From the NCBI GenBank assembly GCA_017506865.1, contig JAFCMP010000108.1:1-64000 (forward strand): DNA of 64,000 nt, written 5' to 3'. The notes beneath the pieces were generated by a model. The model worked only from the letters and a program-made list of their open reading frames with translations, was not told where the DNA came from and ran no database searches. Below are positions 1 to 60,007 of the stretch, piece after piece. Source of the DNA: Tribonema minus (lineage: Eukaryota > Sar > Xanthophyceae > Tribonematales > Tribonemataceae). Positions within the stretch are counted from its first letter, which is position 1, and each line of letters starts with the position of its first letter. The translations under genes were made by a program, and so were the position numbers.

Positions 1-3000
1 AAGGGCCCCAAGAACTTACATGGTGCGCGCCATGGCGTTCGGCCCCGACTCCTCACGCCTCGCCATCGCGCAGACCGACAACATCGTCTTCGTCTACAAG
101 CTCGGCGCCGAGTGGGGCGAGAAAAAGTCCATCTGCAACAAGTTCCCGCAGCCGTCCCCCGTGACAGCGCTCACCTGGGCGGACGCGCGCCCCCGAACGA
201 CATCGTCTTCGGCCTCGCTGACGGCAAGGTCAAGATAGGCCAGCTGCGCACCAACAAGCCCGCGACGCTGTACAACGCGGACTCGTTCGTGGCAGCGCTC
301 GCCGCGAGCGCGGACGGCAACGGCGTAGTCAGCGCGCACGCCGACGGCGCGATTTATCGTTTTTTGTTTGACGACAGCGGCGGCGGGCCGAGCCATGCGC
401 GCCTCGCGGTGCACCCGTGCGTGCCGTACGCGCTGAGCTGGGGGCGCAGCATCGTGGCCGCCGGGAATGACTGCCAAGTGGTGAGCGCTGCTGTGCTCGG
501 TGTGATGAGGGCTAATGCTTGGTGTGTGTGGAGCGCTGCTGCACGGTTCGATGAGCGCTGATGCTGCTTGGTGTGTGGAGCGCTGTTGCTCGGTGTGTGG
601 AGCGTTGCTGCGCAGGCAGTGCGCCCGTGTCTCGCGCGTCTGTCGCTGCGCGGGAAATGCTTAAGCGTAGGGTTGGGATAAGAGCTTTGTGGGTGTGAGT
701 TTTGTGGGTAGGTAGGAATGTATATTGCCGCATGGCATCCGCTGAGCATCATCATCCGAGCATCATCACCTGATGCGCATTCTGGAACGTACATACATAC
801 CTGTTGGTGTGCTTCCAAGCGATGTGTGGCAATGGACTCGCCCGCACCCGTGGAGGTGGGTGGCGGAGCATACTGGCAGTGGGAGATAGGTGCCACATGG
901 CTCTTCTGTGCTCTGATATCCCTGTTGTCAGGGTGTCCTTGAGGGGCTGTTGCAATGAGGGCTGGAGCAGGATACAACTCAGAGCTGTACGTGCAGCATT
1001 TATGTCATTCCTAGCGCTTGCTTCTTGATGGGCACTCTCACTGAAGCGACTGATTGTGTGCAGACATTGCCTGTCAGCGTTTACAGCAGCGGTAACCACA
1101 GCATCCACATGCTGCACGAGTCCTGCCCGTCCTCACACCAGCGATATTTCCATGCAGCTGGCACCTCGCAGCCCAACCGCCATCACAGCGTCATTGTGAG
1201 GCGTCACAGCACGCATTACATCACTCACCGCTGCGCAGCAGGTTAGGGTATTAGGTTCGTGGGTCCATCACAGCGCCATTGTGCGGCGTCGCTGCGCGCA
1301 TTACACTCGCCGCCGCGCAGCAGCAGTGCGCATCTGGTGGTGATGACCAACTTCATGCTGTTGACTCTCCCCCGCAATTTTTCTACGGCGTCGACGGCGG
1401 TCTAGAGCAACTGCATTCCTCATCGTGTGAATCAACTTCATGTCGCCACCACTCAGGGCTGCGCCGTGCCGCAACTTGAACCTGACTGTCCGCATGTGAT
1501 GGTGATAATCAACTTCATGTTGCGACTCTCCCTTGCAGGTATTTTACGGCGTTGACGGCGGTCTGGAGCGCACGTTCGACTACAGCAACTCACCCAAGTG
1601 CAAGGAGTTCAGCGCGGCGGCGTTCAACCCCAGCGGCGACGCCGTTGTGGTGGGCAACTTCAACAGCTTCTACGTGTATGCGCACAACCACCGCGCCGGC
1701 CTGTGGGAAGAAGTTGGCATCAAAGAGGTACTGAAGCTACGTATAGCATGAAGCTTGAAAGTACATAGATCTACAGTATTCTTGCAAGCATATGAGGTGC
1801 AGCAAAGAGGTAGGTAGGTGTTGTGGCCGCGCCTTTCTCGCGCGAGTGAATTGTGACTGGAGTACTGGTGTGTGCCCTGCTTACAATTCCAGGTAGCAGT
1901 TTGACATGTTCGCCGCGCTTCTCTCACTGTCTATTGTGTGGGATGCTTGCAAGAAACTTGACAGCAACATGAGCGGTCGCACTGTTTGTTGTAAGTTTAT
2001 TATATTGTAAGTTTACTGTTGGTTGTAAGTTTATTGGAAACGAATCAAAGATCATAGAGCTCTAGGTGATAAAGGATGGTTAGCCGCAAGTGCCTTCCAC
2101 CAATAACCGTGGTCGCCGCTGCTGCAGTCATTGGCCACGAGTCAAACAGTGCCACCATAACCACAGTAGTCAAAAAGACCTCTGTGTGCAAGCTTTTTAG
2201 CGTTCGAGGGCATGGGTGTTTCAGTATGGAAAGGTCTCACGTGTTCGGTAGGCCAGCTCCAGCTGGTAGCCCAAACACAGGAGGTGCAGCAGCTATTGAC
2301 AGCGCTCTTAAATGCGCGTAGTGTAGAAGGTGGTGTGCGGGTTGTAAGTTTACTATTTTTGCCTCGCCTCAGTGGCCGGACGCCGCTTGTTGTGCCTATT
2401 TGGGCAACCACGGCAATGTTTGGGTTTAGGCATAGGGTTTGGGTTGGGAAGGTTCTGCTGATGCTTGTTTACCAAGCGCTTATCATAGAGGCTTCTGTTG
2501 TGACCCACATGAACAACGGCACTCATACCTTTATCTTAAGTACAACTAGTTCTGCTGTCATCGCCCGGTCAGTCTCTGTACCAGAGTGTGTCGTTTCTGC
2601 GTTGCATTAGGTTGTGCTGTGCATGCAGCACTTTTTCTGAAATATTACACTAAGCATGTGCAGCAATGCAGCTTGACAAATCTGACTTCAACTGCAACTT
2701 CCTGGTGACGCTACCCAGGTGGAGAACATGTACACGGTCACATCGCTGGGGTGGAAGGCGGACGGCAGCAGGCTTGCAGTGGGAACACTGTGCGGCGTGG
2801 TTGACGTCTACGACGCATGCGTCAAGCGCTCGCGCTATCGCGGCAAGTTTGAATTCACGTACGTCAGCCTCAGTCAGGTGAGCCGCAATGTATTTGAGTA
2901 CACGTGAAGTACACTTGCACTTGAGCGCTGAACTCTGGCACTTGTGGTGGACGTGTACGACACATCCATGATGCACTGCTGTGGCAAGTTTGAACGTCAC

Positions 3001-6000
3001 GCACAGCAGTCAGGCGAACGAAGTACTTTCATGATGCTGCATCGAATTGTGAGTTGCTGTGCATCACACGTACGGTCATATTCCAGGCACAGTCTGGTGA
3101 CTGTGGCGTCATTTGCGCCCCGAGCGCAGCCCAGCAAAGCGCGCTGGCATGCCATTGTGGAGCGGCTAGACTGGTTCTTCCCGCACTGCTACATCAATGC
3201 TGCGCAAGAGCACAGCCCACACCACCTTCATCACAATATGGTCCTCTGACATGTGCTGCTATGCCAATGCTGCGCGCCGCCGCCGCCGCCGCCAGGTCAT
3301 CGTGAGGCGCCTCGGCATCAGTGCTGTTCAAAGCACAGCGCACACCCCCTGATTGCGACATATATATGTATAGCGTCCTCTGCAATGTGCTGAGCACTGC
3401 TACGCCACTGCTTCGCCGCCGCCGCGTTCAGGTCATTGTGAAGCGCCTCGGCACGGGCGCGCGCATCGTCGTCAAGTCCCACTTCGGCTGCGAGATCCTC
3501 AAGATCAACATCTGATCGCGATTTTGTCTCCTGAAACAAATATTAAACATGCTGAGCAATGCTGCATCACTGCTGCGCGCCGCCGCCGGCGCCGCCAGGT
3601 CATTGTGAAGCGCCTCGGCACGGGCGCGCGCATCGTCCTCAAGTCCCACTTCGGCTGCGAGATCCTCAAGATCAACATCTTCAAGGACCGCTACGTCGCC
3701 GCCAACACCACGGAGACGCTCCTCCTCGGCGACCTCGAGACCCTCAAGCTGTCGGAGGTGCCCTGGAACTTCAACTCTGGTGGCGAGAAGTTCATCTTCG
3801 ACGCTCCCGCCGCGGCGCTCGTGTTTGCGGCGGGAGAGCTGAGCGTTGTGGAATACGGTCACAACGAGGTCGCGGCGGCGGTGCGCACGGACCACATCAG
3901 CGCGCACCTGCTGTCGGTGCGCCTCAACGAGCGGCCGCCGCGCACCGGCGCGCCCGATGACCCCGATACGCCGCGCGCGGACGAGCACGACGGCCAGGTG
4001 GGCAGGCTGGTGTTGCGGTATCTACAGCATGCATGTGTAGGTAGGTATGAGTATAGGCGATGCGTGCCGGCGCGCCCGATGACCCTGATACGCCGCGCGC
4101 GGATTAGCACGACGGCCAGGTTCGTGGCCCGTATGTATGTATATAGGCGGTGTACCTAGGTAGGTATGGGTATAGGCATAGCGGTATGATGTATGTACTG
4201 GTGTGGGTAGGTATGAGTATAGGTTATGCATGCCGGTGCGCCCGATGACCCCGATACGCCGCGCGCGGACGAGCAGGACGGCCAGGTTCGTGGCGGCATG
4301 TTGTGAACTACAGGCGCTGGTGTAGATAGGTATGGTCATAGACGTCGCCAAACACCGCGTGCGGAAGCGCAGGGCGGCCAGGTGTGCGCACGGCTGTTGT
4401 GGTGGCATGTATGTATGTAGGTGCTGGTGTAGGTATGCTCCAAGCGTCTCGCCACCGTGCACGAACGAGCTGGACGGCCAGGTGCGCCAGTTGGTATCAC
4501 TATGGTGTCTGCAAAGTGTATGTGGTATATGGGCATTGACGCCGCAGAGGAGCTGGACGGCCAGGCGCGCTAGTGGTGCGTCGCATGTGTCGTCAAGCAT
4601 CACCTGCAACGGCATGTGCTGAGTTTTACTGCGCTACTAGATTGATTCAGCATCACCTGCTACGCATCTGCTGACCGGTGATGCGCCGCATGTGCAGAGC
4701 TGGCTCTGCCATTTACTGAGCACTGACACGCCGCATACCAGCCCTCCCCCTTGACCCCCCCCCCCCTTCAACCCCCCCCCCCCTGCAGAATAAAAAGATG
4801 GCCTACCTGCTGGACGCGCAGACGGTGAACGTCAAGAATCTGGTCACACAGGCCAGTGTGACGGTCAATCATGACTGCCGCATCGACTGGCTCGAGCTCA
4901 ACAGCAGGGGCAACCTGCTGCTCTTCAGGTGCGTGCGGGCCGCGGAGCCGTTTCGTAATTCGTAACTGTCTTTGAACACATGTGTGTGGTTGACTGCGCC
5001 GCGTGACTTGTGGCCTGCCGGCTGCAGTGCCCCGCACCACGCGCTACTCTCTTAAAGCGATGCGTGCGTGATGTGATAAACCCGTGGTCAACACTATAGC
5101 TGGCGGGACAGCGACTGCTTGGGAGAAGTAGCATCGTACAACCTCTGTAACATGCTTCAGGAAGGTGAGCGGCCATGCACTAAGAGCAAAATATTCTGCA
5201 AAACTTGTTTCCTGCATGTCTTCCCCCATGATGACGCTTCTCTGCGTGACTTCCCTGGAGATGGTGCTTCTGCTCATATGCCATGCAGTTGGTGATTATG
5301 GGCGTGCAAGTAATGAAGCTGCTGCCCTGTCTCATTCTCCAGGTGATTCCCACTGCTATTTTGCTCGCACATTTGCCTAGCTCACCCAGCCAGGACCATT
5401 GCACCTCTGAGTGACCTGCGGGAAGATCACACACACGACTTGGCCCAATTCCTGAGCAGCTGCAGCTCTCCACTTTGGAGAAGTAGGTTGCCCTGGTGAC
5501 TCATCTAAGAGTGCCCATTCTTCGTTTTCTACTCTGCGAGCCGCGACAGGCGGCGGCAGCTGCACTCCTTCAATGTGAGCATAGTGAACCCTAATTACAA
5601 CTCTGATCTAGTCTACACCCAACCCCAATAACCCTAATCCCCATCCTGACCCAACTACTGAGCGGCCGCACCCCCAAGTTGCCCCCGTTCATCATCCAAG
5701 AGCGCCCATCTTCCTCCTTGACTACACTGTGAGCAGGAACAATCGCGGCAGCTGCACCTGTTCAACATGTACGACTATCTCCCCCTCCCCCCCTGATGCC
5801 GTCACCGTCTCGGGTGCATGCGTCTCCCCTCATTGTCTAGATAGCGTATGCGTTCTTCCTCTCTTACTTTGGAGCAGGGACAAGCGGCGGCAGCTGCACC
5901 TGTTCAACGTGGGCAATTACCTACTTCTGCCTCCTGTTAATGCCGTCATCGTCTCAGTGTGTGCGTCTTCGCTTTTACTCTCTGAGCAGGGACAAGCGGC

Positions 6001-9000
6001 GGCAGCTGCACCTGTTCAACGTTGACGATTATCTACCTTCCTTTAACGCCGTCACCGTCTCAGTGTGTGCACCTTCTTCTTTACTCTCCGGGCAGGGACA
6101 AGCGGCGGCAGCCGCACCTCGACAATGTGGACAGAGTGAACCCTCACCCTAACGCTGATCCGAACCCTAACTCTCACCTAACCCGAATCTCAACCCTGAC
6201 CCATTTCTGCGCAGGGACAAGCGGCGCCAGCTTCACCTGTTCAACGTGGACAACCAGACGCGCACCACGCTGCTCAACCTGTGCAACTACGTGCAGTGGG
6301 TGCCCGACAGCGACGTCGTTGTCGCGCAGAGCCGCACGTCACTCTGCGTCTGGTACAATATACACGCCCCCGATCAGGTACAGCATGTATGCATGTGTTG
6401 TGCGCGTGGTATGTGGCACTGGCACTGCGTCAACGCAGGGTTTAGGTTGGGACAGGGCTGGCGTTTTGGGGTCAACATTAAGTTGTTCGTGTAGTGGATG
6501 CCCGACGGCGACATAGCCGCACCTCCCTCTGCGTCTGGTACAACATTACACGCTCCCGATCAGGTACAGCATCAGCGGTACGCGCATGGTCTGTGACATT
6601 TGGCATTGCGACAACGTAGGGCTGGAGGTGGGTCAGGACTCAGGTTAGGGTTAGAGGTGCAGTGGGTGCCCGACAGTGACGTCGTCGTCGCGCAGAGCCG
6701 CACCTCGCTGTGCGCCTGGTACAGCATACACGCTCCCGATCAGTTACATGGCGTATGTATGTTGTGCATATGGTCCACGACATCTGCATTGCGTCAGCGC
6801 AAGGGACAGGATAAGGGTCGCGGCTAGAATCAGGGCTAGGGTTAGGGTTACAGGTGCAGTGGTTGCCCGACAGCGACGTCGTCGTTGCACAGAGCCGCAC
6901 CTCGCTCTGCGTGTGGTACAACATACACGCTCCCGATCAGGTACATGGCGTATTTGTTTTGAAGTATGTGCTATATGACACTTGCCATTGCGCCAATGCA
7001 GGGTTTGCGATTCGGGCTAGGGCTAGTGTTAGTATAGTGTTAGTATGACATGTGCGGTGGATGTCAACAGCGATGTAGGCGCGCCTCGCTTTGCGTCTGG
7101 TGCAACATGAATGCCACTGATCAGGTACATACTGTATGTGTAGGTTGTGCATATGGTCAGTGACACTTGCCACTGCGCTAGTGCAGGATCAGGGTTGGGG
7201 CAAGCAAGGCTTACAGCTAGGGCCGATACTACATGCGCCTAGGGGCAGCATTATATGAGGATGAGGGTTAAGCCTAGGGCTAGGGTTAAGGTGGGGGTGG
7301 GGGTTATGAACTCTGCACCTGGCACGACATCCACGCCCCCATCAGGTGCGTTGTGAGCGTTGTGCACATGGTCTAGGGTTAGGGTTTGGGCTAGGGTCAG
7401 GGATACACTGTACATGCGTTCCCGCATGCTCATCCCCTACGACCCCGTGTATGCACACACAAAATTCTCTGTTGATGATCACTGCTTTAACGCCATGTCT
7501 CGAGAAGTTATCAACAGCCTTACTATGAATCAATTCTTATGGCCCTACTCACTTCACCTGCACCTGCTTCATTTGCCGACTGATCTGATTGGTCCTCAGG
7601 TCACCAATCACCAGATCAAGGGCGACGTGTACGAAATAGAGCGATCGTCGGGGCGCACGGAAGTCATTGTCAACGAGGGCTTCCGAGAGGCATCGTACTT
7701 GCTCGATGAGGCCCTGATAGAGTTTGGGACGGCTATAGACGACAGGGATTACGCCAAGGCGATGGAGGTGAGACCGCAATGCTGCACACACTGCCCGCAT
7801 CGCAAGTGAACTGTGGTGAATGGTAGTGAACTGCGGTGAACAGGGAGTGGACTGGCGCTTTCCAATGCCGCTGGAGCTGACACTGGAGGGCGCGGCCACG
7901 CGGCCTGAGGCGCTACTCACCTGGTTGAGCGCTGCTGCTGCGCCTTTGCTGAGCGCTGCACACACACACTGAGCACTGCTGCTGCTGCTGTGGGGCGTAC
8001 TCGCGACCCCCCCCCCTTGTCGCGGCTAAGGCTTTCCCCGCCGGAGCTCACCCCAGAATCCCCTCGTATGCGTTGAGCACTGCTGCTGCTGCTCCTGCTG
8101 CTGCTGCACCTGTCTATGTGGCACCTTGTTTTGAATGGACTCGTCCTCGCTCTGACCACTATCTGGCAGATCTTGAGCACTGCCGCCGGAGCTCGCCCCT
8201 GGAGTAGTCCGCAGCATCCCCAGTTGCTGAGCGCTCATGCGCAACGAGCTCTACCACACACACACCTGCGCTCCCCCGCTGAGCTCCCCCTTTTACCTTG
8301 CGCTCCGCCGCTCCACGTGCGCTGAGCACCGCTGCTGTAGCTGGTGCGGCATCTTGTCCTCGATGCAGTCGCGCGCTGGCACTCAGTCGCGTGCCGCAAC
8401 GCCCCCAAAGCTGAGCGTAACCGATGCAGGTCATTCGTCGTCCATGCTTGCGGGCACAAAGCTCAGGGTGAGGGCCAGGGTGAGGGTCGCGGCGGCGGCA
8501 TGAACAGTTCTCTACCTGATGAGCTCTCCCGCCGCCGCCGCCACCTTTTTTGTCCGTCCCGCTCCCGCTGCTGCCCAGATTCTCGAGCCACTGGAACTCA
8601 CGCCGGAGGCAGCGGCCATGTGGTCGCAGCTGTGCGACATGGCACTCGCGCACGGCGACGTCCTCATTGCTGAGCGCTGCGCAGCGGCGCTGGGTGACGT
8701 GCCGCGCGCGGCGTATTTGCATGCGCTGAGCGCTGCTGCTGCTGCCGTGGGGGGGGGGGAGGGGGGGGGGCGCGACCACTGGAGCGTGCGGCACAGGATG
8801 TGTTTGCTGCGGAAGGATCTGAAGGGGGCGGAGGATGCGTTGCTGGCGCAGGGGCGGGTTGAGGAAGCCATAGCTATGTATGAGAAGGTATGTACTTTCA
8901 ACATACCGTATACTTTCAACATAGTGCATACTTTCGAGTATGAGAGCATCTGCTCATGAATACTGAAGTATACACATGCATGCACAACCATCGCCATTTA

Positions 9001-15000: not shown

Positions 15001-16038
15001 GACGGTCAGGCAACCACGCTGTCGCTCTGCAGTGCACACATGCTGACAACGCCCCACGACACAAACAAGCCGACTGCGTCAGTTACACTGCCCGTAACTG
15101 TCAACCCCCCTGTGCCCCCCCGCACCCCCCGCGCAGCTCCACCAGTACGAGGCCGCGCTCGCGCTCGCCAAGTCGCGGCGACTCGACCCCGCGCGAGTCG
15201 AGTCACTCGCCGCGCGCTACTTCCAGGTGCTCCTGGACACCAACCAGGACCAGCGCGCCGCCCTTCTTAAGGAGGCTGAGGGAGACGCGGAGGAGGCCAT
15301 GAGGCTGTATCTCAAGGCAGGGCTGCCGGCGCAGGCGGCGCGCGTTCTAAAGGAGAACGAACGTTCCGTGAAGAGCGGGCGCGCGCAGTGGCTGGAGACG
15401 CTCGCCGCGGCGCTGGGGAGCGCGGGCATGCACGACAGGGCGGGGGACTGCTTCGAGGAGCTAGGTATGTATACAGTGTGTATACAGGCCTGTACTTCAA
15501 GTTTGAAAATGACATGCTCATTTCGTGCATCTACGAGCATGCACGACAGGGCGGAGGACTGCTTTGAGGAGCTGGGTATGTATGCTTCTACGTGGACATG
15601 AGTTGAAGATCTGGGTAGGAAATTGTGTGGTTGTTGACTCTCCACGCACAGTGCTTCATGTGTCTGTATGTTTACATTGATCCTTGATGATGCCTGCTCG
15701 CCATCAATATAATAATGAGCGCGGGCATGCACGACAGGGCGGGGGACTGCTTCGAGGAGTTGGGTATGTATGCATGCAGGCCTGTGCTTCAAGTTTGAAG
15801 ATGGAATGCTTATGCGCAACAGCGAACGCAAGGCACGTCGTGACAGTGCAGGCCAGCTGCGACGCGCCCTCATGGCTGAAAAAGGTGCACGCTCATTATA
15901 GACAGTGCCTGCCAAACCAACCGCTGCCCCTCCCCTCTCCCCGCTACCAGCTGCAGCGTGCACTGGACGCGTCACAGTCTCGTCCACGTTTCCCCCGCTA
16001 TATGAGCCGTTGCCCCCCCCCTGCTACGCCCCTGCAAG

Positions 16039-16073
<35 letters not shown>

Positions 16074-30737: not shown

Positions 30738-30857
30738 GCTGGCGAGAAAGCCTTATTTGTGGCACGAGAGAACTGGCCAAACAGGGATTTAAAAAGATCT
30801 AGAATGACGCGCCATACATACTACATACCCCCATGCATATGGATTGAAGTCCTGTCC

Positions 30858-31480: not shown

Positions 31481-31508
31481 ATACTGATGACGACGACGAC
31501 GACGTGGG

Positions 31509-31965: not shown

Positions 31966-32088
31966 GCCGTCGCGCGTGCGCAGCTGCGCTGGGTGTTCCC
32001 ACACGGCGTCATCGCCGTTGTCATCAGTGTAGACTGCGTGCACGGCACGACAGAGCAGGGCAACGCGCAGTTGAAGTTGAGGTGCTGC

Positions 32089-42200: not shown

Positions 42201-45200
42201 CGCATCATGAGCGCCGCCAGGATGCGCGCGAGGCGCCGGAACCCCACGCTCCGCGCATCGCCGAACTGGCGCGCGATGTGCTCGCGCCAATCGGCAGCGT
42301 CGCTCCACTGTGTCGCGCGCAAGAAGGCCAGGAGGCTGCGCGTGTGCGACAGCGCGCGCTCGAGGGTGGTGTCGGGGGTCGGCGTGCCGGAGACGATCCA
42401 GAGGCGCTCCGCTTCAATGGCGCGCGCGACTTCGCCGTAGTTGGTCCAGGACTGGCCGCCGAGGGCGTGGCCTGTGGAGCGATGCAACCATGTGACGTGC
42501 CTGAGCTGTCAGATTTAGATAATGGCGTTATGAGTGGTATTTGTGACTGGCGTTATGAGTGGTGACTGAGCAAGGGCCGATTGAGCAAAGATGCTAGTGC
42601 CACGAGTGTCGGGGACTCGATGGCGCGCGCGACTTCGCCGTAGTTGGTCCAGGACTGGCCGCCGAGGGCGTGGCCTGCGGGCGCATGTTGCAGATGAGCA
42701 CATGAGCAAGCCGTAATGATCATTTGTCGACATTGACATTAAAGTGTCATCAGTATGATGCATTGAGACCAGCGCATGTAAGGGAGCAACAATGCTGGTG
42801 CTCAATGGCGCGCGCGACCTCGCTGTAGTTAACATCGAGCAGTGCCATCTGATTCATCACCTTCGTCAACCACCCTCTTGTGGAAGTGCGTGGTGAACAG
42901 CGGCGAGACGCCCCCGTCAGTAGCTGCAATGTCACTTTATCCGCTTGAATCTGCTGTTGCGGTTGCCTTGAAGCACACTTCTTCGTGAAGCACGCTTCGA
43001 CTGCATCAAGCAGCGCCATGCAATCCACATTTATTACCTTCATCAATGACCATTCTCTGGAAGCGGGTGGCAAACTGAATGATTTGATGCTTGCCTCCAG
43101 TCACACTTCTTCCACTGCATCGAGCAGCGTCTTGCAATCCATCATTATTACCTTCGTCAGTGACCATCCGCTGGAAGTGCGTGGCGACAGCGGCGACACG
43201 TCGAGCACTGCCATCCCACTTATCTCCAATCATAGTTTTCCGAGGACATACGCCTTCCATCACGCTTCTACAACTGCAGTGCCATTTTTCTCATCACCTT
43301 CGTCAATGACCATCCTCTGGAAGTGTGTGGCAAACAGCGGCGACGCGTCCCCGTTCTCGCGCTCCGCGCTCAGGCGGCTGGTGGTGGTGACGACGATGTT
43401 GAAGTTTGCCATTTGCTGAGCGCTGGGCAGAGGCTGTCTGATGTGCTTGTCGAAGAAGGCCGCACCGAGGTATGTAGGTATGCTGTACGTGGTGATCTGG
43501 GTTATCCAGTGCTCCAGCTAGGGTTAGCGTTGGAAATGGGCGTTGGCGGCAGGGAGTGCAGCGGCGGGCGACAGGAGGAGATGAGTGAATGCCAGGCTGT
43601 TGTGCTGATCGATGGTCACTTTGCAGTAGATGATGGACATGACCAGCAGATGAACTGGTCTGTTTTGTAAGTGCCTGCCAATCAAGTCTACACATCTGCT
43701 TGTCGATCTGCAGTTAGGCTGACATAAATACGTACATACCATGGGCGGCGACACCACGATGCGCGATGTACAGAGGAGCGTCAACTTGAGGTTAGGTGTC
43801 AATTAACAACGACGCACACCATGGGCGCGGCGGCACGACGATGAGCATCGCGGGCGACGGCGCCAGTGCCGCGGGGCGATTGTGCAGAGGAGCGTCAACT
43901 TGAGGTCAGGCGAGCGACGATTGGCCCAAATCATACATACATACATGCCATGGGCGACGGCACTACAATGAGCCCATGGTGTCACGACGCCGAGCGTCGC
44001 GGGCAATGGCGCCAGCGCCGCGAGGCGCGCGGCGAGCTTGTGTGCAGGTGCGTCAACTTCAAGGTAGGTGAGGTTGGGTGAGCGTCGGTGGCCGAAAGCA
44101 TACATACTACAGTACATACCATGGGCGGCAGCACCACAATGAGCGTCGCGGGCGACGGCGTCAGCGCCGCGAGGCGCGCGGCGCGCTTGTGCAGGGGAGC
44201 GTCAACTTGAAGTTTGGTGAAACAAATATTTTGAAGTACATACATACATACCATGGGCGGCGGCACCACGATGAGCGTCGCGGGCGACGGCGTCAGCGCC
44301 GCGAGGCGCGCTTAGGAATGTCAACTTGAGGATAGGTGAATCACATTCAGAGGAGCATCAACTTGAAGTCAGGTGAACATCAAGACTTCCATAAACATAC
44401 GTACCATTGGCGGCGGCACCACGATGAGCGTCGCGGGCGACGGCGTCAGCGCCGCGAGGCGCGCAGCGCGCCTGTCTGTGGGCGCCAGCTGCTCCACCAG
44501 CACGGCCATTGCGTCGTCGAATGCCAACTTCAACTGCGCGGCGGCGGTGCCGATCTCGGGGCGCGGCGCGCGCGCTTGCGGCGTGCGCAGGTGGTACGTG
44601 ATGGCGTTGTCGAAGACGGCGTGCACGGATGCTGAGAACTGCTGCAGGGTGACGAGGTCTTTGGGGGAGCGCTGACACCTGCCGCGGAAACGCAAATTGA
44701 AGATGGAGGGCGTCAAAGTGTGATTTGAGGGGTCACCAATCTCAACGGCAACAGCCTTGAGGCCAGCACACTTGTGCAATGGTAGGTGCAGTTTGACCAC
44801 GGAGTAAAGTACAGACGTCAAGGTAGGCCATGCGTGGAGTGATGCTGGCGAGGACTCCCAACACTAACCCCAGCAAAACTGTGACTCAAACTCTTGAGAT
44901 GCAGTTGAATATCGAAGCCGAACTGCCAGGGGCAAGGTGCACGACGACCTCATACCGGACGCATCACAGCAGCATGTCCGAGTGTCGATGCATCGTACTA
45001 CGATAGGAAGTGACGCGGTTCTTGTACGTGAATTGCGATAATATGAGGACGCGCAGTTCACTCGCACCTGATCTCCCAGTCGAGGCTGGCCAGATCTTGC
45101 GGCGCATGCGGCGCCACCAACTCAACGCCATAGTGTAACATGCACTGGAACCCTCAGTCAGCATCACACTACAAAGGCGCTTCTACAGCTCCACGAACAA

Positions 45201-48200
45201 GGCTACGCACACCAGGAAGCGCAGTTCACGCGCACCTGATCTCCCAGTCGAGGCTGGCCAAGTCTTGCGGCGCATGCAGCGCAACCACTTCCACCATTTA
45301 AAACCAAGGTGTAACATGAACGAACTTGAAGTTACAACGCATGGTGCACGCTTCTACAAATCCGTGGAGAAGGCCGTGCACACAAAGAAGCGCAGCTCGT
45401 GCGCGCACCTGATCTCCCAGTCGAGGCTGGCCAGATCTTGCGGCGCGCGCGGCATCAACTTCTACCACTTGAATTCAAAGTGCAACACGCACTTGAAGTT
45501 ATACAGCTCACGCGCGCACCTGATCTCCCAGTCAAGGCTGGCCAGGTCTTGCGGCGCGTGCGGCGCCACCAGCTCATAGTCGCCCATGCCCCACTCCGCG
45601 AGCGCGAGCGGCGTCAGCGGCTGCGCGAACCAGTCCGCGCCCACCTCCGCTGAGCACTGCTGCAGGTCACGAAGCACCCTGCTCATACGCATGGCCCTGT
45701 CGGTGGCGTCCCAGTGGCGCCAGCAATCTTCTGCGCGCGTCAGCTGCTCAGCGCGCGTGTGCGGCAGCGCTCCGCATGAGGGGGGGGTCGGCAGGCGCCC
45801 CTTGGAGCGCAGCACGAGGGCCAGGATGGTGATGGTCTTGCCGAGACCTGCGGCAATGGCAGATAAACACGGCAAGAAAGTGCTTGGCAGATGTGCACGG
45901 CGGTGGCCGTAGGGTATGTAAGGTTTGGCACTGCGAACAAACGTACATACATGCATGCATACCTAGGCATACGCAAGCAACAGGGACAAGTTGGCCTCAT
46001 ATAACAAAGGGAAGCGAAGGCGCACCTTGCAGCCCAGCAAGCACTAGGACTAGGAAGTGATAGACTGTACCGGACTTGGTGAACGTCAGACGCAGCACGC
46101 AACAAGCTCGTCTTCATGCACCACTCTTTCATGTACAAGAGCAGTGTTGCCGAGCCCAGGCGGCGGAAGTCGCACGGCATTTTCTTGACTTCTCTTGCAT
46201 ACATCAGATGGCCACGCCATGGGCTGGCATATGCGCATGAGTATGACACTCAAGACACCAAGAAGCTTGCTGTTGATGCGCTGACAATGGCAAAGGCGGC
46301 TTCTGAAGCACCAAACTGCACGTTGTTTTGTGTAGCGTACACATACAGGGAATCAAAGGTACCCGCTGCCATGAGTGTATGGCCCCGTTCAGCGGCTTCA
46401 ACCCTAACCTAACCTTACCCTTACCCTAACCCTAACACCACATACATACATGCCCCACCTGGCTCGTCGCACAGCAGCCCCCCGCACACGACCGGAATGT
46501 CAGGGGGATCAAACTCCCCCCCCACCCCCATCACCAGGCTCCTCTTGTGGACCCACAGCACAGCAGCGGTGCCCCCTGTCACCCCCCTCACACGGTAGTA
46601 CAGGTGGAGAGCTGCCTGGTGCCTCCGGTGCAGGCGCTGCTGCTGTTCCGATGAGCAGCGCTCGCGCGCAGTCATCCACCTGAGCGATGGGCATGGATAA
46701 ACGTGGATGATCATGAACGAAAACAGTGCATCTACGCCGAGCAGCGCTCGTGCGCCGTGATCCACCTGAGTGATGGTGACAGCGCACAGCTCAGCTCATG
46801 TTGAGGTTGGGTCCTGTTAAGCACTGACATGGCTGTTCATGTTTGCCTCCTGGGTTCTCGATGATCACTTCTAGCAACACATGCACTAGTTGTCTTGTGT
46901 CAGCTTGGGTCCCTTGGTTGTCCATTCCTGGCACGGTGGTGAGCTATACGCTCTCAATGGGCATGACTTCATGTGAATGACCATAGTTGATCTTGCATGA
47001 ACAACCATTTTAAATTCGGACTGACTCGGCACTTAATGCATTAATATGCAATGAATCATGATGGCACCCGGGCGCTGCTGCTGCCCCCATGAGCAGCGCT
47101 TGTGTCGCCTGAGCAGGAGCACGACCGAACATGAATGAACATAGTTAATCATGCTTGAACCATCATGGATCGTGAGTGATTGGCATGGTCACAAATGGAC
47201 ATGGACAGCAATGAACGAAGTGATCATGATGGCACCTGGGCGCTGCTGCTGCACCAGTGAGCAGCGGTTGCACGGTATCTTGCACCTGGTGAAGCGGCAT
47301 GAGTGAGTGTGAATGATCTTGAGTGAACAGGCACGGCTGAAGGTGCACACTCACTATGAACAGCGCTGGCGCTGATGAATGACCGTGGATAGGCTGCAAG
47401 TGGATGTATACATGACCAGCAAGCCATTGCTGCTCCGTTGCTGAGCGTTGCTGAGCAGCTTTTGCAAATGGTCGAGCACTACCACCTATGCATAATCGCG
47501 CAGGCAGCAGCGGTGCTGCAAAAAAAATCAATCAGTAATATGCACAGCAGTGGGGTCCGCAGCGAAATCAGAGCTGAAAGTCAGTGCAACAGATCTGGCT
47601 CAAGGCATACTGGTAGCACAGCTTACCAGTAGGGAGCGTTTACATTTAACCTGCGTCGCCATCTGCCCGTGCACTGCCACTGTCCCTCACCTCAGCGCCC
47701 TGACCTGGTGCGGGTACAGCTTGAAGCGCCGCCTCCCCCCCGCCCCTCCCTCCCCCCTCCTCCACAGAGTGCAGGTATTCTAGTGCACGTGCTGCTCCGC
47801 ATCCCACGCACATTAATCCACTCAGATACAGGCCTTATGCTTGCTGCCACTGTGTGTCTCACCTCAGCGCTTTGACCTGGTGCGGGTACAGCTCGAAGCG
47901 CCGCCCCCCCGCCGCGTGCGCCGCCGGCAGCGTGAGCCCCAGCGGATGCGCCTCCAGGCTCCTGTGTAAGTGCTTGCACGCGCCCGCCAGCACCTCAAAC
48001 GAGCGTGCATCCAGGTACTCCGCCAGGTGGCGAAGGGGCACGCCAAAGAGGTCCGGGACGCGGGTGGCGGCGTACGTTTTGTAGGGGGACGCGGGGGCGA
48101 GGGGGGCGGCGGCGCAGGGGGGGCGGTACTGCGGCAGGCTGGCGTACAGCTCGTGCATGATGCGCGTGGGCTCGTGCTGGTAGTGAGAAGCGGGGTTGCT

Positions 48201-53020: not shown

Positions 53021-56000
53021 ATGAACACTATGAGAGCGCTCGTGCTTGGCCTTGCGGTGATGCCCTTTGCAACTGACGCTTGGGGCTGCACGCGAAGATA
53101 TTACTGTGAGTGCTTCACGACTTGCATTCTGTCTGTCGCTTGCGGCGGTTTCGTCTGGTGACACGAATCACACAGCCAGCTACTGGATACTGCAAATAAA
53201 TGGCGCACGGTGCTCGGCTTCACGTCCGTCTGCTGGTGCTGCTCGGCTCCACCTTCCTTCTTCTTGTCTGTGTAACGACAGATATTCAATTGCTGAGTAT
53301 CGGATTTGCTGTCGTGCGCTTGCACTTCCAAAGCTCGTCACTTGCGTATCGTGGACAACAAACAGTCCATGTCCAGTCGAGCCTTATGCCTCGGCTATGC
53401 AATTCGTCAATTGTGCACAAGCCTTGCTCAACTCCCCTGGGGCAGTGCATCTCTACGACAACTGGAACCTCATGTTCTGATGCCGTGATGCTTTGAGCGC
53501 ACCAGTGCTTGAGACATTGGTGGCCCACCGACATTTGTGACGGCTCTGAGCGCTGCCACCGTAACCCCCACAGAAGATGTTGCACGCGCGCACATGATTG
53601 CTCACTTTTGCACCTCAGTATCCACAACGCTCGTCTTGCTGAGGCAACCTGAGGCAGCGGATCATCAGGACACATGGCGTAGTCCCCAGTTCAATGTTGC
53701 TGTGAACTGATTGGCTTGAATGCTGCCACGCTGCGCAGTCGCTGCGACGGAGGTGGACTGGGACTATGCGCCAAGCAACATCAACCAGTTAACTGGTGAG
53801 TGCCGGGTGATGTGACGTGCCATTGGCATATTGCTTGGTGGCGCTTGTCATGTGTGCCATGCTCTTGCTGCAGCTGCACGTGCTGTCGCTGGCGAAGCGG
53901 AAGCACTCCGGCAATCTTCAAAACGCTCCAAGTATGACACATACTTGTCATACTAAAGTGTGGCGCTTGACTTGGCAGGCCTTAGCAGCATCTGCAGCTC
54001 TCTGCTATCTCGATTCCGTGATGCGCCATGTTCTGGTACTGTCAATCTGTCCAGTGACACTTGCGCTTTGGAGCAAACGGGGTGAACGTCAGGGTTGGGG
54101 ACAGGCTATATGGCACCATTTGAGTAAAGTGGGTCAAGTATGAGTCGTACAGTATGAGTCACGTAATGAGTCACACATAGTATCCTTGGGTGCTCGTATC
54201 GCCAGCACCCTCCCGCTCTTCTCAGCGGATTTGTGGTGCATTGCAGGGGCTGAGGGTGTATGCAACGTTTAACCACACCCTGAAAATAGAGTCCGCATTT
54301 CCTGCCAACGTCCACCATTGTGTACAGAAGTGGCACGACAGCCTAGATGATGATTTGTTGATGTTGCTATTTGTTGGTGCTTTAAAGCATAGACCTACGG
54401 TTGTTTGTAGACCAGCAACTGAATATGAATGATTGTTGTTTGGGATGTTTTGTGAGCATGTGCATATTGCTATCAACCACAGCTCGCTACTACCATTGCT
54501 TGCACGTCTTCTAACCCTAGCCCCTAAACCTACTTGCAGGCGCCTCCATCACCCTGCCCGGCAGCGAGTCGGCCATTTACGCGGAGAACAACGACATGAC
54601 TATCGGCAAGGTCTACCGCAAGGCCCTCTACATTGAGTACACCGACGCGACGTTCACCAAAGTCAAGCCCACGCCAGAGAACATGGGCTTCCTCGGACCC
54701 TTCATGAGGGCGGAGGTCGGTGAAAAAACATCATGTGATGATCAGTGCTCAGCAATTTTCACCGCCGCGCTGATTCCTGCAACCTACACCATTCACAAAA
54801 CAAACCCTCAGTGCTCAGCAATACGCACCGCCGCTAATCGCTGCTGCAGGTCGGCGACACCATTGAGCTCACCTTCAAGAACAATGCGGGCGCCGGCTTC
54901 ACCCCCCCTCTCCAATTCTCCGTGCACCCCCACGGCGTCAAGTACACAAAGGCCAACGAGGGCGCGCACTACCAGTTTGAAGTTAACGGCTCGGGCAGCG
55001 TCAACCCCGGCGCGACCTACGTGTACAGGGTACGTATGTATCGGCTGCAATTCACATCCATGAATTGCGTGTGGGGTTCACGTTCATGAATTGCGGTGAA
55101 ATGTGTCGGCAGTGTGGACCATAACGATTTCGTCTGCCTGCCACAGGGGTGGATCCAGGCGTCTGCACTATGCAGCTTTGTGACACAACAGACATGAACA
55201 GTATCATTGATGGCCTTCCATCAAAACAACACAAGAAAAGTGCCCCAGCCATGTATAGCTACTTGTGCATGGCGTTGAGAGCATCAGGCATTGAACTTTC
55301 AACCCTAGCCATACATCTAGAGCTCATTTGTAGTACCGCCCAAATCTCAACTATGACCCTAATCCAGTCTTGCTTGCTAACAACTGTCACGGACGCCTCG
55401 GGCGCCTAACATACGCTGACCCTTCGGCCGTGTTCAGCCCATCATGTACCGTGTGATGCTGACACTTTGAAGCTTGTGATTTTACTGGCGGCTCGCGGGG
55501 ATTCGCATAGCACTCGGCGGCCTTCACGAGCAATACATTACATGCCAGCCACATCCACCTTGCCGCAAGCTGCAACCCTGCAGCCGACCTCGTGTCAGCA
55601 CTAGGCTCTGAAGGTCTCGCGGATGAATGAAAAGACATCGGTTCTGAAGACTCCCTTGCCCATGGGACTGTGTTCTGCAAAGCCTCACACGGCTTCACCT
55701 ACATGACGTTACATCAACCCATATGCACCGGCCACTTTCAACGCACACCTATATTATTTATGCCTGCATTGTTGTTGCGCCCGATGACGATGCTCAACTC
55801 TGCACCTCTGCTGCGCTCCTGAGCGATGCTGTGCTCTCGCACGCAAAACGCCACTATTAGCGCTGACACCGCACCCCCCGCTATCTCTCCCCCCCCATGA
55901 CCCCACAGTGGGACGTTCCCGAGCGCTCTGGCCCTGCCGCTGCGGACGGCAACGCCGTCATGTGGGCCTACCACTCACACCACGATGAGGTGTGTATTTA

Positions 56001-59000
56001 TGTATGGGGTATGTATACATATGTATGCATATGAGTACCTTACAGAAAGTAGTTATATCGGGCAAGCGCGATGGCAACGCCATCATGTGGGCCTACCACT
56101 CGCACCACGATGAGGTGCGTATGTGTGTGTTGGCTTGCATGCATATGGGTATGTATGCATATAGATACAGTATGTAGGTATGCCGGGCAAGCGCGACGGC
56201 GACGCCATCATGTGGGCCTACCACTCGCACCACGATGAGGTGCGCATGTATGCGTGGGTGTAGATGTATATGGGTATGCATGAAGGCATGTAGGTATCAT
56301 GTGCGCTGTATGTATGGGTATGTATATACTATGCATGCATATGAGCATGAAGTATGCCGTGCAAGGAATCGGAAACGCCATCATGTGGGCCTATCACTCG
56401 CACACACGATGGGGTGGGTACGCATGTATGAGTATGTAGGTATTGGTGACGTAGGGTTAGAGGGTCTGGTGAGGGTAGAGTTACTGCGACAAGGTGGGTC
56501 GCAGTGGTCGAGGTTTATTTCCTGCACCAGCTCTCATGACGGTGGTTATGCGCGCACACAGCGTTGTTGCTGAGCGCTGGGATTGTGGAAGGAATGCTTG
56601 CAAAGTTAAACGCTGTGCCAACTGGCAGGGCAAACACGCAAATCGAATAGAGGCACACAAGTGGTATGTATCATGAGTATCAGCCTCATTTGGGCTGCGT
56701 TGTTGTGCAACCCGACTCTCACCCTAACCCATTTGCCGTTCAGCCGCAAGCTTCTCAGTTGCTGTTGCCTTGTGCGCCGAACCGTAACCCTTGTGTTTAC
56801 TTAGCGTGGGTATGAAGATGTTGCCCGGTACCTTAACCCCAACGGGTGTGTTTGGCATGCAGTGAAGAGCTAATCAGCTACCGCAGTTCTTGCTCTGCGC
56901 GTAATTGCCAATCAAGCACACAGGGCTTTCACGTGAAGCCAGGCTTTTTATCCTTACATCAGAATACTTCATCCATCCATCCACCCGTATTCATCAATCT
57001 ACCTCTATACCGAGGAAGTATATAGTCTATACTGAGCTATGCCCCCCCTTAGGTATAGAGTCTATACTGAGCTATGCCCCCTCTTGTCCCCCTTTGCTCT
57101 CGAGCGCAGCCCAAGGACACATACTCCGGTCTCTCTGGCCCCCTCATCATCTACAGGGCCGGCACTCTTGACCCCAAGACCAACAGGCCCCTTGACGTCG
57201 ACAGGGAATTTGTCATACTCTTCCAGGTACGGACGCTGCTACCTGCAGCTACATACTTCGAAGTACCTACCTTGGCATTGTGCAGCTACATACTACCCCT
57301 GCATGAGGTTGTCATCCTCTTCCAGGTATGCACGCTAGTACCTGCAGCTACATACATACCCTGCGGGTCTGGAGCTGTGCGTCGTCAGCTGGTGGTGCGG
57401 CCCTTAATGCAGTGCTCCGGCATGACCTGCGGTTAGGGTGAGGCGCAAGGGGACGCTGGATGAGCCGTGACACACCACTAACCCTAACACTAACCCTAAC
57501 GCGCTGAGTCGTGACACAGCAGTGTAACTGAGACGTGACACTCAGGCGTGACACACTGTAGGAGTTTGCTGTCTCCATGTGGTGACTGCCAACTTTGCTG
57601 CGCAGAGGCTTGCAGCGGCGTGTCATGTCACATGTGTATCAATCTGTTCACGCGAGTGCACTGCGTGTGCCGAGAACCTCGGGCAAGTAGAGGCACCGCA
57701 TACATACATACCGCGTACACAATATAAAGCATGCTTCCATGCGATGTGACACTTGCTTCTGTCTTTCAATGCGCACTCTTGCGCTTCAAACCTACGTAGC
57801 TCTACCCCTGCTTGTAATCCAAACAGCCTTCTCTCACCTGACTGGGCTTCCCACAGCACGTGCGAGCATAGAACATGGTTCTGCATATCATGACACATGC
57901 ACCTTGTGGTTAAATGTGGACATCGCACCCTGCCCTGATCGTAATCCAAACAAACTCATCTCAACTGACTGTGTCAAGATGCTCTTGGGCTATTCATTGC
58001 ACGTCGTGGTAGTGCAAGCGGCCTATGGTGACCAACGCTGTCGGCTTCATGACGTTCGCTTATGTAGCTGACTGACACATAGCCTACGCACACGCCAACG
58101 CCGCCCTGGGTCACACTGCGCGTGACACTACTGAGCTGCACTGCAACGCTGTAGGATCGAACTCCTTTTCAGGACCGTACGTATATGGTGACAATTGCTA
58201 AGGACAAGCTTTTTGGCCTGCTGTTGCCGGCACTTGGCCGGCAGGGTTAGGGTTAGGGTTAGGGTTAGAGTTAGGCTAACCCTAACCCTAACAGCAGCGT
58301 ACCGTGCACATCATCGTCTGCGGTCGACCCCGATAATTGGGGCAGCAGCAGTTTAATCCTGATCCCAAATATTACACCAGCACAATGATGCGCACAAACC
58401 AGCAACTGACCAACCCCCCCCTCCCCCCCCCCAAACAGGTGACAAATGAGAACGACAGCCACTACCTGGATGTGAACTGCGCCAAGTTTGGCTGCAACCC
58501 CGCCCTTGTTAACGCCGATCCTGCGGGATTTGCCGAGAGCAACCTCATGCACAACATCAACGGCCGCTTCTTCGGCAACCTCAACGGGCTCGACATGTAC
58601 GTGGGAGAGAGGATCCGCTGGTTTGTGGCCGCGTTTGGCACGGAGGTGAGTCAACAGTAGAGTCATGAGTCAAGTCATGAGTCAAGTCAGTGCCGCGCGC
58701 TGCTTCCTTGCAATGCGCTGAAAATTGGTGCAATATGGCATGACTGAATCGCCCCAATGTTGAAAGAAGGCCGTGACAGATACTCAGAGTGGATGCCACT
58801 TTGGGCCTTATCAGGCTTCAGTATTTTATCAGTTATAGACCTAATCCTAAACCTAACCCTGACGTCATTCGGCCTTCATTTTCATGGACAGCACCGCTCA
58901 TCGTCAGATGGCTCTACGGTGTGAGAAATCTCAGTGATTTTGAAACCACAACTTGCGATTGCGTAACACCGCTCCACAAATGCACACCAGTGCTCGACAG

Positions 59001-60007
59001 CGTCCGTCTGCTGGCTGACGCACGGCCAGCCTGCGGGCGCATGACTGTGCATTTGTGTGCAGTACTGATCAGCCTACACACATACGTTGATGATATCTAG
59101 ACACCCTCGGCCAGCATGCAGAATCGACGTTCACACAAAATCTCATACCAACATACCCTTGCCCCTCGCGCAAGATTGACTGCACTTGGTGGCTGCGAAC
59201 ACTGACACTGACACCGTCACACGTGTGCGGTTAAACCCGGACACATTACTCAGCGCCGCAGCTGCCTGCACTCCATTGCCATGCAGGTCGACCTTCACAC
59301 GGCGCACTTCCACGGCAACACTCTTACTATGGACAACCACCGCACGGATGTGGTGGACCTCCTGCCCGCCACCTTCAGGACGCTCATCATGCAGCCCGAC
59401 GCGGAGGGCAAGTGGCTCATTCACTGCCACGTGAGTTCTGAAAAGTTAAAATTGTGAAGGGTGCGGCGCGTCACTTCAACTTGAACGCGTTGTCTTTTCC
59501 CGTTTGTGGCATTGATGATGACCTGCCGCAAGGATTTCTGGAACACCTCTTGTTTCCATGTTGAGACGCTCTTTTCCTACCTTGGCTTTATTATAAGGAT
59601 GGTAACTTCAAAGTACTTGGGTGTCCGTGGGCCTGCACAGCACCCTGGCCTTAAATTGAACGAATTAATTGAATTAAATGAATGCAATGGCCTTGCACTC
59701 CCAAGCTGGAATGAGCACAGCAGTATGCATTCCATGGCACTTTGCCTTGCTGACTGCCGTGCTGATTTCTCATGGATTTATTCACCGCATGGCGTGATAA
59801 TTTCGGCGCAATGAGGTCTGCTACCATGCGCTGCACCACCAGCCAGCCTGACTTGCTGACTCTTTGACTTACTCACTCACTCACCTTTCTACATGGCTCA
59901 ATCTCTCGTGCTCACAGGTCAACGACCACATCAAGGCGGGCATGCTGGCCTACTACAACGTCAACCCCAGGCCCACCGGCCTGAGGGGCAGCACTGCCCC
60001 CTACTAA
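53021..60007 (+). CDS. Secreted two-domain multicopper oxidase, ceruloplasmin/ferroxidase type (9 exons)
   Basis: Copper enzyme that oxidises a substrate (often Fe2+ or phenols in this superfamily) and reduces O2 to water. Exons: 53021-53105, 53739-53795, 54540-54715, 54850-55029, 55909-55989, 57110-57226, 58439-58645, 59287-59430, 59918-60007; 378 residues, phases consistent. Residues 1-~22 (MRALVLGLAVMPFATDAWG) are a signal peptide. RRYYFAATEVDWDYAPS is the classic ceruloplasmin-family start. Ligands seen: HPHG (132-135), HSH in YHSHHDE (188-190), HTAHFHG (H305, H308, H310), and HCHVNDHIKAGM (H347, C348, H349, H353, M358). This gives a complete type 1 site and trinuclear cluster. There are only two cupredoxin domains, against three in laccases and six in ceruloplasmin. 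Iron uptake at the cell surface is plausible; the substrate is not shown. The intron 3 donor (GTCGGT) is weak. Confidence 0.92.
56040..56415 (+). repeat. Array of oxidase exon 5 donor echoes (3 copies)
   Basis: GGCAACGCCATCATGTGGGC, CTACCACTCGCACCACGATG, AGGTGCG recurs at about 56065-56120, 56185-56245 and 56365-56415 after the true exon 5 end (55989). It carries the codons of the copper-binding HSH motif and the donor. Intron text GTATGTATGCATATG is copied too. Confidence 0.93.
57305..57362 (+). repeat. Echo of oxidase exon 6 donor
   Basis: GTTGTCATCCTCTTCCAGGTATGCACGCTAGTACCTGCAGCTACATAC at 57308 repeats the exon 6 end and intron start (57207-57255). The donor is intact. Confidence 0.88.
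57476..57500. repeat. Interstitial CCCTAA-type tract
   Basis: CACTAACCCTAACACTAACC then CTAAC, in oxidase intron 6. Confidence 0.75.
58243..58292. repeat. Head-to-head TTAGGG / CCCTAA tract
   Basis: Four GGTTAG-type units (58243-58270) are followed after a few bases by CTAACCCTAACCCTAAC (58276-58292), so the two arms are inverted copies. This is the arrangement expected of a telomere-fusion-like junction or a captured telomeric foldback. It lies in oxidase intron 6. Confidence 0.9.

Follow-up and report, generated by a model that had tools for sequence, protein, structure and literature searches.

Much of the DNA in introns has no traceable source, and the three neighbouring multi-exon genes studied here raise the question whether part of it was copied from the edge of the adjoining exon. 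In the window, i.e. the whole stretch of 64,000 nucleotides that was analysed, a sequence-only reading had pointed to more than 60 decayed copies of exon edges (echoes) at about 25 junctions. The genes encode IFT172 (+ strand, 1-26747), a RAD5/HLTF-like SNF2 protein (- strand, 48488-36141) and a ceruloplasmin-like multicopper oxidase (+ strand, 54540-59959), and our models contain 33 introns with 66 junctions. They were built by dynamic programming and compared with proteins of solved structure, and echoes miscalled as exons were then removed manually, guided by protein alignments. The C-terminal part of IFT172 scored 122 bits against chain 9h2d_A, an IFT172 homolog that we take to be the human protein, and 93 bits against Chlamydomonas IFT172, and an assignment to the green algae on the strength of the Chlamydomonas match is therefore not upheld. 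If 9h2d_A is the human protein, we judge its score too low for a vertebrate or a lancelet; the source eukaryote is probably flagellated. No relatives were detected among viral contigs in a single scan that used part of IFT172 as query. The SNF2 gene was modelled from open frames and a PDB match that is weak (54 bits), and individual borders may be a few bases off.

When 60-bp exon edges were matched to the introns of the three genes, 73 copies were found in the own intron of the exon, at 26 of the 66 junctions and in 21 of the 33 introns, in good agreement with the initial estimate. All of them are in sense orientation, as had been claimed, and no antisense copy of these edges was found. Echoes are present at 16 of the 33 donors (50 copies) and at 10 of the 33 acceptors (23 copies); IFT172 contributes 37 copies, the SNF2 gene 33 and the multicopper oxidase gene 3. 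The remaining 40 junctions have no echoes above threshold, among them both ends of the IFT172 intron 8888-15136, which contains a retroelement. Introner elements are repeated intronic sequences that are common to unrelated introns; unlike these, the exon edges had no match in any non-adjacent intron (2.2 Mb of comparisons), and the comparison that the sequence-only reading had proposed as its own test, adjacent versus non-adjacent exons, came out clean (73 versus 0). Two matches fell in the other flanking intron of their exon; both belong to one array, on the donor side of an 81-bp exon of the oxidase gene. Shuffled introns gave no match at threshold in 1980 tests. Similarly, 60-bp intron edges matched their own intron 42 times and other introns 8 times (one intron shorter than 250 bp was omitted as source). 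The exon-edge copying pattern is real, and the arrays and repeats are the following:

1326..1569, +, IFT172 acceptor array, exon start 1539, 1 echo
3192..3680, +, IFT172 acceptor array at 3599, 1 echo, 82 bp of exon
3945..4341, +, IFT172 donor array at 3997, 2 echoes
5487..6253, +, IFT172 acceptor array at 6215, 4 echoes
6290..7204, +, IFT172 donor array at 6377, 5 echoes, spacing 180-221 bp
15418..15813, +, IFT172 donor array at 15464, 2 echoes
15916..16143, +, IFT172 acceptor array at 16119, 1 echo
16304..16784, +, IFT172 donor array at 16410 (GC donor), 2 echoes
18248..18425, +, IFT172 donor repeat at 18271, 24 bp exon part, under the exon-edge screen threshold
18590..19602, +, IFT172 acceptor array at 19548, 6 echoes, spacing 146-171 bp
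19886..20573, +, IFT172 donor array at 19955, 5 echoes
20974..21207, +, IFT172 acceptor repeat at 21187, short exon part
21291..21856, +, IFT172 donor array at 21345, 2 echoes above threshold, weaker ones by eye
22785..23081, +, IFT172 acceptor repeat at 23062, short exon part
23144..23674, +, IFT172 donor array at 23200, 3 echoes
24684..25037, +, IFT172 donor array at 24739, 2 echoes
25130..25568, +, IFT172 acceptor-side array, stops 37 bp upstream of exon start 25605, 1 echo
36697..37107, -, SNF2 gene donor array at 37051, 2 echoes
37738..38321, -, SNF2 gene acceptor array at 37787, 3 echoes
39786..40505, -, SNF2 gene donor array at 40453, 4 echoes, spacing 137-149 bp
40547..40824, -, SNF2 gene acceptor array at 40620, 1 echo
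41111..42197, -, SNF2 gene donor array at 42135, 6 echoes
42414..42830, -, SNF2 gene acceptor array at 42471, 2 echoes
42833..43354, -, SNF2 gene donor array at 43298, 3 echoes
43723..44478, -, SNF2 gene donor array at 44405, 5 echoes
45046..45576, -, SNF2 gene donor array at 45520, 3 echoes, SLDWEI peptide end encodable by each
46633..47322, -, SNF2 gene acceptor array at 46679, 3 echoes
47674..47915, -, SNF2 gene donor array at 47863, 1 echo
55945..56438, +, multicopper oxidase donor array at 55989, 3 echoes
57210..57355, +, multicopper oxidase donor repeat at 57226, short exon part
482..611, +, IFT172 array of intron sequence only, from 2 bp past donor 480
17196..17422, +, IFT172 array of intron sequence only, from 13 bp past donor 17183, period about 80 bp
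1180..1323, +, IFT172 wholly internal intron duplication (counter-example)
39397..39663, -, SNF2 gene wholly internal intron duplication (counter-example)

The copies are arranged head to tail with a period that is specific to each array. Their spacing (median 146 bp, range 82-298, n=67) exceeds the unit size of about 50-150 bp that had been proposed; that the units span the splice site holds, with 56 of the 73 echoes ending at most 1 base, and 66 at most 5 bases, from the exon border. On the exon side, between 30 and 60 bp into the exon, the anchored profile drops from.87 to the background level, and the copied part stops by about 60 bp irrespective of exon length. The median exon depth was 53 and 54.5 bp with two scoring schemes and 76 bp with the most permissive one, and a clustering of the depths is visible under two schemes and weaker under the third. 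In the near exon part the echoes are about 88% identical to the exon (about 12% differences), and the intron part differs more. The decay with distance from the junction that had been described was found as a trend, which is negative in 10 of the 13 arrays with at least three copies, but it is weak (mean rho -0.38), with zero correlation in one array and a positive one in two.

Are the copies tied to the junctions, or are junctions just the place where copies can be recognized? Local repeats in the window are overwhelmingly direct: 127 direct pairs lie within 1.5 kb and 2 farther apart, and there are 1 near and 8 far inverted pairs (self-matching palindromes excluded). They form 34 clusters in the three genes, of which 29 (85%) include a junction, 3 lie at 2-37 bp from one, and 2 are internal. 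Random placement predicts 9.7 clusters with a junction and never gave more than 22 in 20000 trials; geometry alone accounts for 16-31%. The arrays cover 14.3 of the 29.2 kb of intron DNA, the retroelement intron left out. The local, same-strand, junction-spanning nature of the copies and their concentration at junctions are direct observations. We simulated uniform duplication with the detection used for the real data, exploring few settings. Starting from long introns, 43-50% of the clusters were at junctions if there was no exchange between copies and 26-60% with exchange, and exchange as the source of the enrichment in long introns did not reach the observed level. Runs that started from 90-bp introns gave 55-100% junction arrays, several of them with just 4-10 arrays.

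The explanation that we consider probable, with moderate confidence, is that these are junction-spanning arrays of the "mirage" type which expand through local duplication and unequal exchange, with the outermost copy being spliced and the exon serving as a selected anchor. According to this model, a local tandem duplication would capture the last or first 30-60 bp or so of an exon together with about 40-150 bp of intron including the splice site. If splicing stays at the outermost site, the new copy would be silent intron, and arrays would therefore be tolerated. Further duplication and unequal exchange would lengthen the array, and introns would thus grow from their edges. While the copies decay, the exon, as the terminal unit under coding selection, would remain in the exchange pool, purging amino-acid-changing differences from the echoes and taking back silent ones only. 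That the outermost copy is the functional one, as had been claimed, appears to hold as judged by protein homology: models using the outermost copies align to Chlamydomonas IFT172, and 65 of the 67 echo sites would shift the frame or hit a stop if they were used. We infer that duplication and exchange are at work, that the outermost site is the one spliced, and that anchoring by the exon is one reason for the junction enrichment.

The echoes show a codon-position asymmetry. Exon and echoes differ at 6.0, 6.5 and 17.8% of the first, second and third codon positions, and echoes differ among each other at 11.1, 10.9 and 19.2%; the corresponding codon ratios are 2.85 (95% CI 2.26-3.61, 26 arrays) and 1.74 (CI 1.18-2.50). 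One-way copying from the exon has a ceiling of about 1.75 by our own estimate, which the exon-echo ratio exceeds; the echo-echo ratio taken alone would fit one-way copying. The exon is unlike unanimous echoes at 1, 2 and 16 sites for the three codon positions. The averages over these positions suggest continued exchange between the echoes and the exon under selection. Single-base composition as the cause of the third-position excess is ruled out, as the mutation spectrum of the intron parts predicts no such excess; CpG bases are mismatched more often in the intron parts (.27-.28 versus.18-.20), an effect that we judge too small to account for it. A step in conservation at the junction itself depends on how the copies are found: the exon side is better kept in 12 of 16 arrays found by the exon and in 9 of 11 or 7 of 7 found by local alignments, depending on the scoring scheme, and both sides are equal (.73 and.73, 30 pairs) for copies found by the intron edge. 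We therefore prefer the codon positions to this step test, since they should be insensitive to how the copies were chosen.

Two features fit the anchored-array model less well. It does not predict the sharp limit of exon depth, and the decay with distance is weak, though expected if new copies join beside the exon. Moreover, anchoring as modelled is insufficient alone, since the long-intron simulations with exchange fell short of the observed junction share. A rival explanation is breakage or repair, targeted to junctions for instance by chromatin or co-transcriptional structures at exon edges, that duplicates a unit of fixed footprint. The exon limit of about 60 bp at any exon length and the median spacing of 146 bp would agree with this, as would the involvement of both donors and acceptors and the two exon-free arrays that start 2 and 13 bp past a donor. 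However, the spacing is broad, the estimate of exon depth varies with scoring, and the mechanism is hypothetical; we regard this explanation as unlikely. It is tempting to speculate, and this is a tentative thought, that junction-targeted duplication with such a footprint acts genome-wide, that introns thereby lengthen inward from the splice sites with the exon as a permanent selected template that edits its echoes, and that this is a general route of intron growth which includes the lancelet and bird cases discussed below.

Rather unlikely, in our view, is a history in which introns were about 100 bp long when the arrays were seeded, and the arrays expanded later. In such introns the sole tolerated duplications of 100-200 bp would have been those spanning one junction, and the short-start simulations did yield high junction shares. 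Yet the share was 55-69% in the runs in which introns reached 685-828 bp, about half of the present intron DNA (retroelement intron excluded) lies outside arrays, and the introns devoid of any cluster measure 811, 879 and 991 bp.

Neutral tandem duplication acting everywhere, with junction arrays being just more visible because the exon is preserved, was the alternative offered in the sequence-only reading, and as stated it is not supported: masking the exons leaves 30 clusters in the three genes, of which 20 lie at most 40 bp from a junction. The observed junction share (29 of 34), the scarcity of internal clusters (2 of 34 without masking) and the non-uniform exon depth also speak against it. 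In its favour, simulation without exchange placed well more clusters at junctions than geometry, echo sites are in frame in 22 of 67 cases, with frames that look random, and 24 of 26 echo indels shift the frame (2 are in-frame), which together argue that the echoes are not coding. We consider plain neutral duplication improbable; neutral duplication that began in short introns may apply.

Could the echoes be retained as decoy or alternative splice sites? The splice dinucleotide is intact in most echoes, namely in 43 of 49 at donors (GT, or GC where the parent has GC) and in 14 of 18 at acceptors; 18 of 49 and 8 of 18, respectively, equal or exceed the real site in score, and codon positions 1 and 2 are better kept than position 3. 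Against this, frame-shifting indels are common, retention of the donor GT (.95) is similar to that of codon positions 1 and 2 (.94) rather than higher, and an in-frame, stop-free extension is possible from just 2 of 67 echo sites. Productive use of the echoes is ruled out by the frame shifts and stops described above, and a function of this kind is very unlikely. An assembly artefact is hardly credible even though repeats are difficult to assemble, because assembling one sequence would not create the differences between echoes and exon, with the echoes having indels of their own, and the same kind of structure is backed by raw nanopore data in chicken (PMC12954441).

The sequence-only reading knew of no description of such introns; this class of repeat is already in print, since two cases share its anatomy. 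(i) The lancelet "mirage" minisatellites occur in globin, Adh, troponin C and PGBD5 genes, with units of 150-160 bp in the globin genes, affect 5' and 3' borders, keep AG/GT in many but not all copies, and reportedly do not interfere with regular splicing (PMC3087553, PMC3902484). They turn over with concerted evolution and show length instability between haplotypes or somatically; the BflGb6 repeat units are 81-100% identical and vary in copy number by haplotype (PMC3087553, PMC3902484). Here, too, most clusters include the junction base, both borders are affected, and most but not all echoes keep the dinucleotide. Whereas the lancelet repeats are described at a few loci, we find 26 of 66 junctions affected across three neighbouring genes, in a single sequence with echoes about as divergent from the near exon part as given above. 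(ii) On chicken dot chromosomes, "sequence/exon stuttering" (Hron et al. 2026; PMC12954441) copies the lateral exon part and the splice site through the adjacent intron as strictly local, imperfect tandems. The source lies at most 1 base from the exon border in more than 90% of cases, with 1-44 copies (median 4) and an exon part of median 36 bp; the border precision at our locus was obtained with a different alignment method (PMC12954441). Both phenomena are confined to the adjacent intron. In birds, however, the intron-only form is usual and exon stuttering affects 190 of 5572 dot-chromosome introns, linked to GC-rich genes and to strong, extensive intraspecies variation of intron length (PMC12954441), whereas here clusters without exon are few, exon echoes occur in nearly two thirds of the introns, intron GC is 53-55%, and the lineage is a different one. 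The Rogers model of intron gain also invokes tandem duplication of a sequence that takes in splice signals, AG|GT (cited in PMC3087553, PMC2812944); there, the new intron lies between two copies, while our copies sit inside an existing intron whose nearest exon edge they match.

What is new here is the different lineage, the high density, the tie to junctions, the small number of intron-only arrays, the exon limit of about 60 bp and the codon-position signature. Our search of open-licence papers found no case outside animals. If the arrays hold throughout the genome of a lineage outside both lancelets and birds, the process either arose repeatedly or is general. About half of the intron DNA in these genes, the retroelement intron excepted, sits in arrays of readable origin, and since the conserved exon is a built-in reference for most arrays, their age, order, exchange and splice-site choice become measurable. 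They also pose a puzzle for splicing, namely how up to six decoy sites per junction, some of which score like the real site, would be passed over. Apart from the arrays, the introns contain an excess of the telomere-like motif CCCTAA, with 20 occurrences compared to 6.7 expected.

In the three multi-exon genes of the window, introns carry echoes, i.e. decayed tandem copies of an exon edge and its splice site, and these are strictly oriented and almost entirely confined to the intron adjoining that edge. The genes concerned are:

1-26747, + strand, IFT172 (bit scores of 715 and 630 for its two halves against Chlamydomonas IFT172)
48488-36141, - strand, RAD5/HLTF-like SNF2 gene (54 bits to RAD5)
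54540-59959, + strand, ceruloplasmin-like multicopper oxidase (701 bits summed, three ceruloplasmin repeats)

Exon borders were taken from a dynamic-programming model corrected by protein alignments, those at the junctions of the SNF2 gene being less secure than in the other genes. The modelled set comprises 33 introns and 66 junctions, with 32 GT donors, one GC donor and 33 AG acceptors; all counts refer to one window, three genes and one sequence. The GC donor (CAG/GCACGT at 16410-16416) appears to end an IFT172 exon, because the conserved protein length requires an exon end there, and both its echoes retain GC. Since IFT172 is present, the host is probably a flagellated eukaryote.

When 60-bp exon edges were aligned against all 33 introns on both strands, 73 sense matches were found in the adjoining intron, at 26 of the 66 junctions (16 donors, 10 acceptors), and no antisense match. 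This bears out the sequence-only reading, which had described the echoes as local and of the same orientation as the exon: against these 73 matches, non-adjacent introns gave none across 2.2 Mb of comparisons, and the only two matches in an exon's opposite flanking intron came from a single donor array that surrounds an 81-bp exon. Shuffled introns reached the threshold in 0 of 1980 tests. Self-comparison of the window without any exon input gave 127 direct repeat pairs at most 1.5 kb apart and 2 farther, and 1 near and 8 far inverted pairs (palindromes excluded). The longest IFT172 intron (8888-15136) harbours an antisense retroelement with a reverse transcriptase on the - strand (9760-12318, Pfam RVT_1 match); exon-edge alignment detected no exon-edge copies at either end of this intron, and self-comparison no junction-linked cluster.

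The copied exon part is short, although the exons concerned measure 81-1143 bp: within 30 bp of the junction, exon and echo share.87-.89 identity, which drops to.83 at 30-40 bp,.74 at 40-50 bp and.63 at 50-60 bp, and to background beyond (.44-.54; unrelated sequence,.51). This depth is narrower than random breakpoints would give (sd 17 vs 38, 0 of 20000 trials as narrow), and 15 of 25 arrays reach 45-63 bp into the exon where 4 were expected, a clustering that is blurred under more permissive scoring. The proposed decay with distance is seen in 10 of 13 arrays and is no more than a tendency. Successive echoes lie 146 bp apart in the median (n=67; quartiles 121-176), many arrays having a characteristic period. 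The median is near the nucleosome core length and near the unit size of lancelet globin mirages (150-160 bp), which may be coincidence. In the array at 39786-40505, copies two units apart (284 bp) are 77% alike as compared to 73% for neighbours (137 bp), a higher-order pattern that suggests exchange by two-unit steps.

The arrays are concentrated at junctions. Local direct repeats form 36 clusters. The three genes hold 34 of them, of which 29 include a junction base, three others are 2, 13 and 37 bp away from one, and two are internal (1180-1323 and 39397-39663). Placing clusters at random within their host introns, where they could reach up to 90 bp into the exon, put a mean of 9.7 and a maximum of 22 at junctions in 20000 trials. 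With the retroelement intron excluded, 14.3 of the 29.2 kb of intron lie in arrays. Why junctions are preferred can be considered in the light of simulated uniform tandem duplication, run at few settings with the same detection as on the real data. Introns starting at 90 bp had 55-100% of their arrays at junctions, and those starting at 700 bp 43-50% without and 26-60% with exchange; the observed share is 85%. Introns may have been short in ancestry when the arrays arose. Alternatively, anchoring by the exon, as a terminal unit under coding selection that exchanges with its echoes, may concentrate arrays in a form other than the simulated one. A third possibility is breakage targeted to junctions; the narrow exon depth speaks for this or for a selective limit on echo length. 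The neutral idea that arrays are visible only where an exon provides a reference fails as a sole reason, since a search with exons masked still found 30 genic clusters, 20 of them at most 40 bp from a junction.

Several lines of evidence bear on how the copies evolve. Exon and echo differ by 6.0% at the first, 6.5% at the second and 17.8% at the third codon position, and echoes among themselves by 11.1, 10.9 and 19.2%. From the single-base mutation spectrum of the intron parts, all three positions would be expected to change at the same rate. The exon-echo ratio of third to first-plus-second positions is 2.85 (95% CI 2.26-3.61, 26 arrays). For echoes copied once and then decaying freely beside a silently changing exon, we estimate a ratio of at most about 1.75, presuming that silent and intron mutation rates are equal; the echo-echo ratio of 1.74 (CI 1.18-2.50) is, taken alone, compatible with such one-way copying. 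Sites at which the exon departs from unanimous echoes number 1, 2 and 16 by codon position, and in 30 local alignments covering both sides (12 arrays), exon copy and echo have diverged more on the intron side (.227) than on the exon side (.093). Between echoes, the exon side was better kept than the intron side in two analyses, but not in a third that located the copies through the intron edge. As 24 of 26 echo indels shift the frame, the echoes are not translated; nevertheless, the data as a whole suggest that their codon positions 1 and 2 have evolved about half as fast as neutral sequence. The best explanation is exchange with an exon under coding selection, in which amino-acid changes would be barred from entering the exon and overwritten in the echoes, and silent changes would cross both ways.

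The parent dinucleotide is retained in 43 of 49 donor and 14 of 18 acceptor echoes, and 18 donor and 8 acceptor echoes equal or exceed the real site in score. If used, 22 of the 67 echo sites would keep the frame, only 2 of them without a stop; the spacings fall across the three frames as 26, 24 and 17. Judged from these sites, most echoes are intact decoys whose productive use would hardly be possible, with no visible purging. We infer that the spliceosome would take the sites bounding the shortest exon, in keeping with exon definition.

Related arrangements have been described. In chicken exon stuttering, which affects 236 introns (190 on dot chromosomes), a lateral exon part and its splice site are copied along the adjoining intron; stuttering of intron sequence only and strong variation in length accompany it (PMC12954441). 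Lancelet globin mirages, minisatellites at exon borders, have units of 150-160 bp (PMC3087553; see also PMC3902484), and human tandem repeats at exon-intron boundaries can yield novel introns (PMC2812944). Given these precedents, the Tribonema minus case is a further, dense and junction-bound form of an already described phenomenon; in the open-licence literature we found no comparable report outside animals. In contrast to the chicken, where intron-only expansions are described as usual, only 2 of 34 genic clusters are internal here.

Other repeats were observed as well. Apart from the retroelement intron, the introns of the three genes contain 20 copies of CCCTAA on the sense strand where 6.7 would be expected, and 4 copies of ACCCTAACCC; this excess resembles degenerate telomere repeats. 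Outside the three genes, at 31519-31975, a 115-bp tandem duplication of 99% identity overlaps with a long inverted repeat whose arms match at 77% over 337 bp. Finally, the tandem repeats at 50318-50856 lie within a leucine-rich-repeat reading frame and are coding, not intronic.
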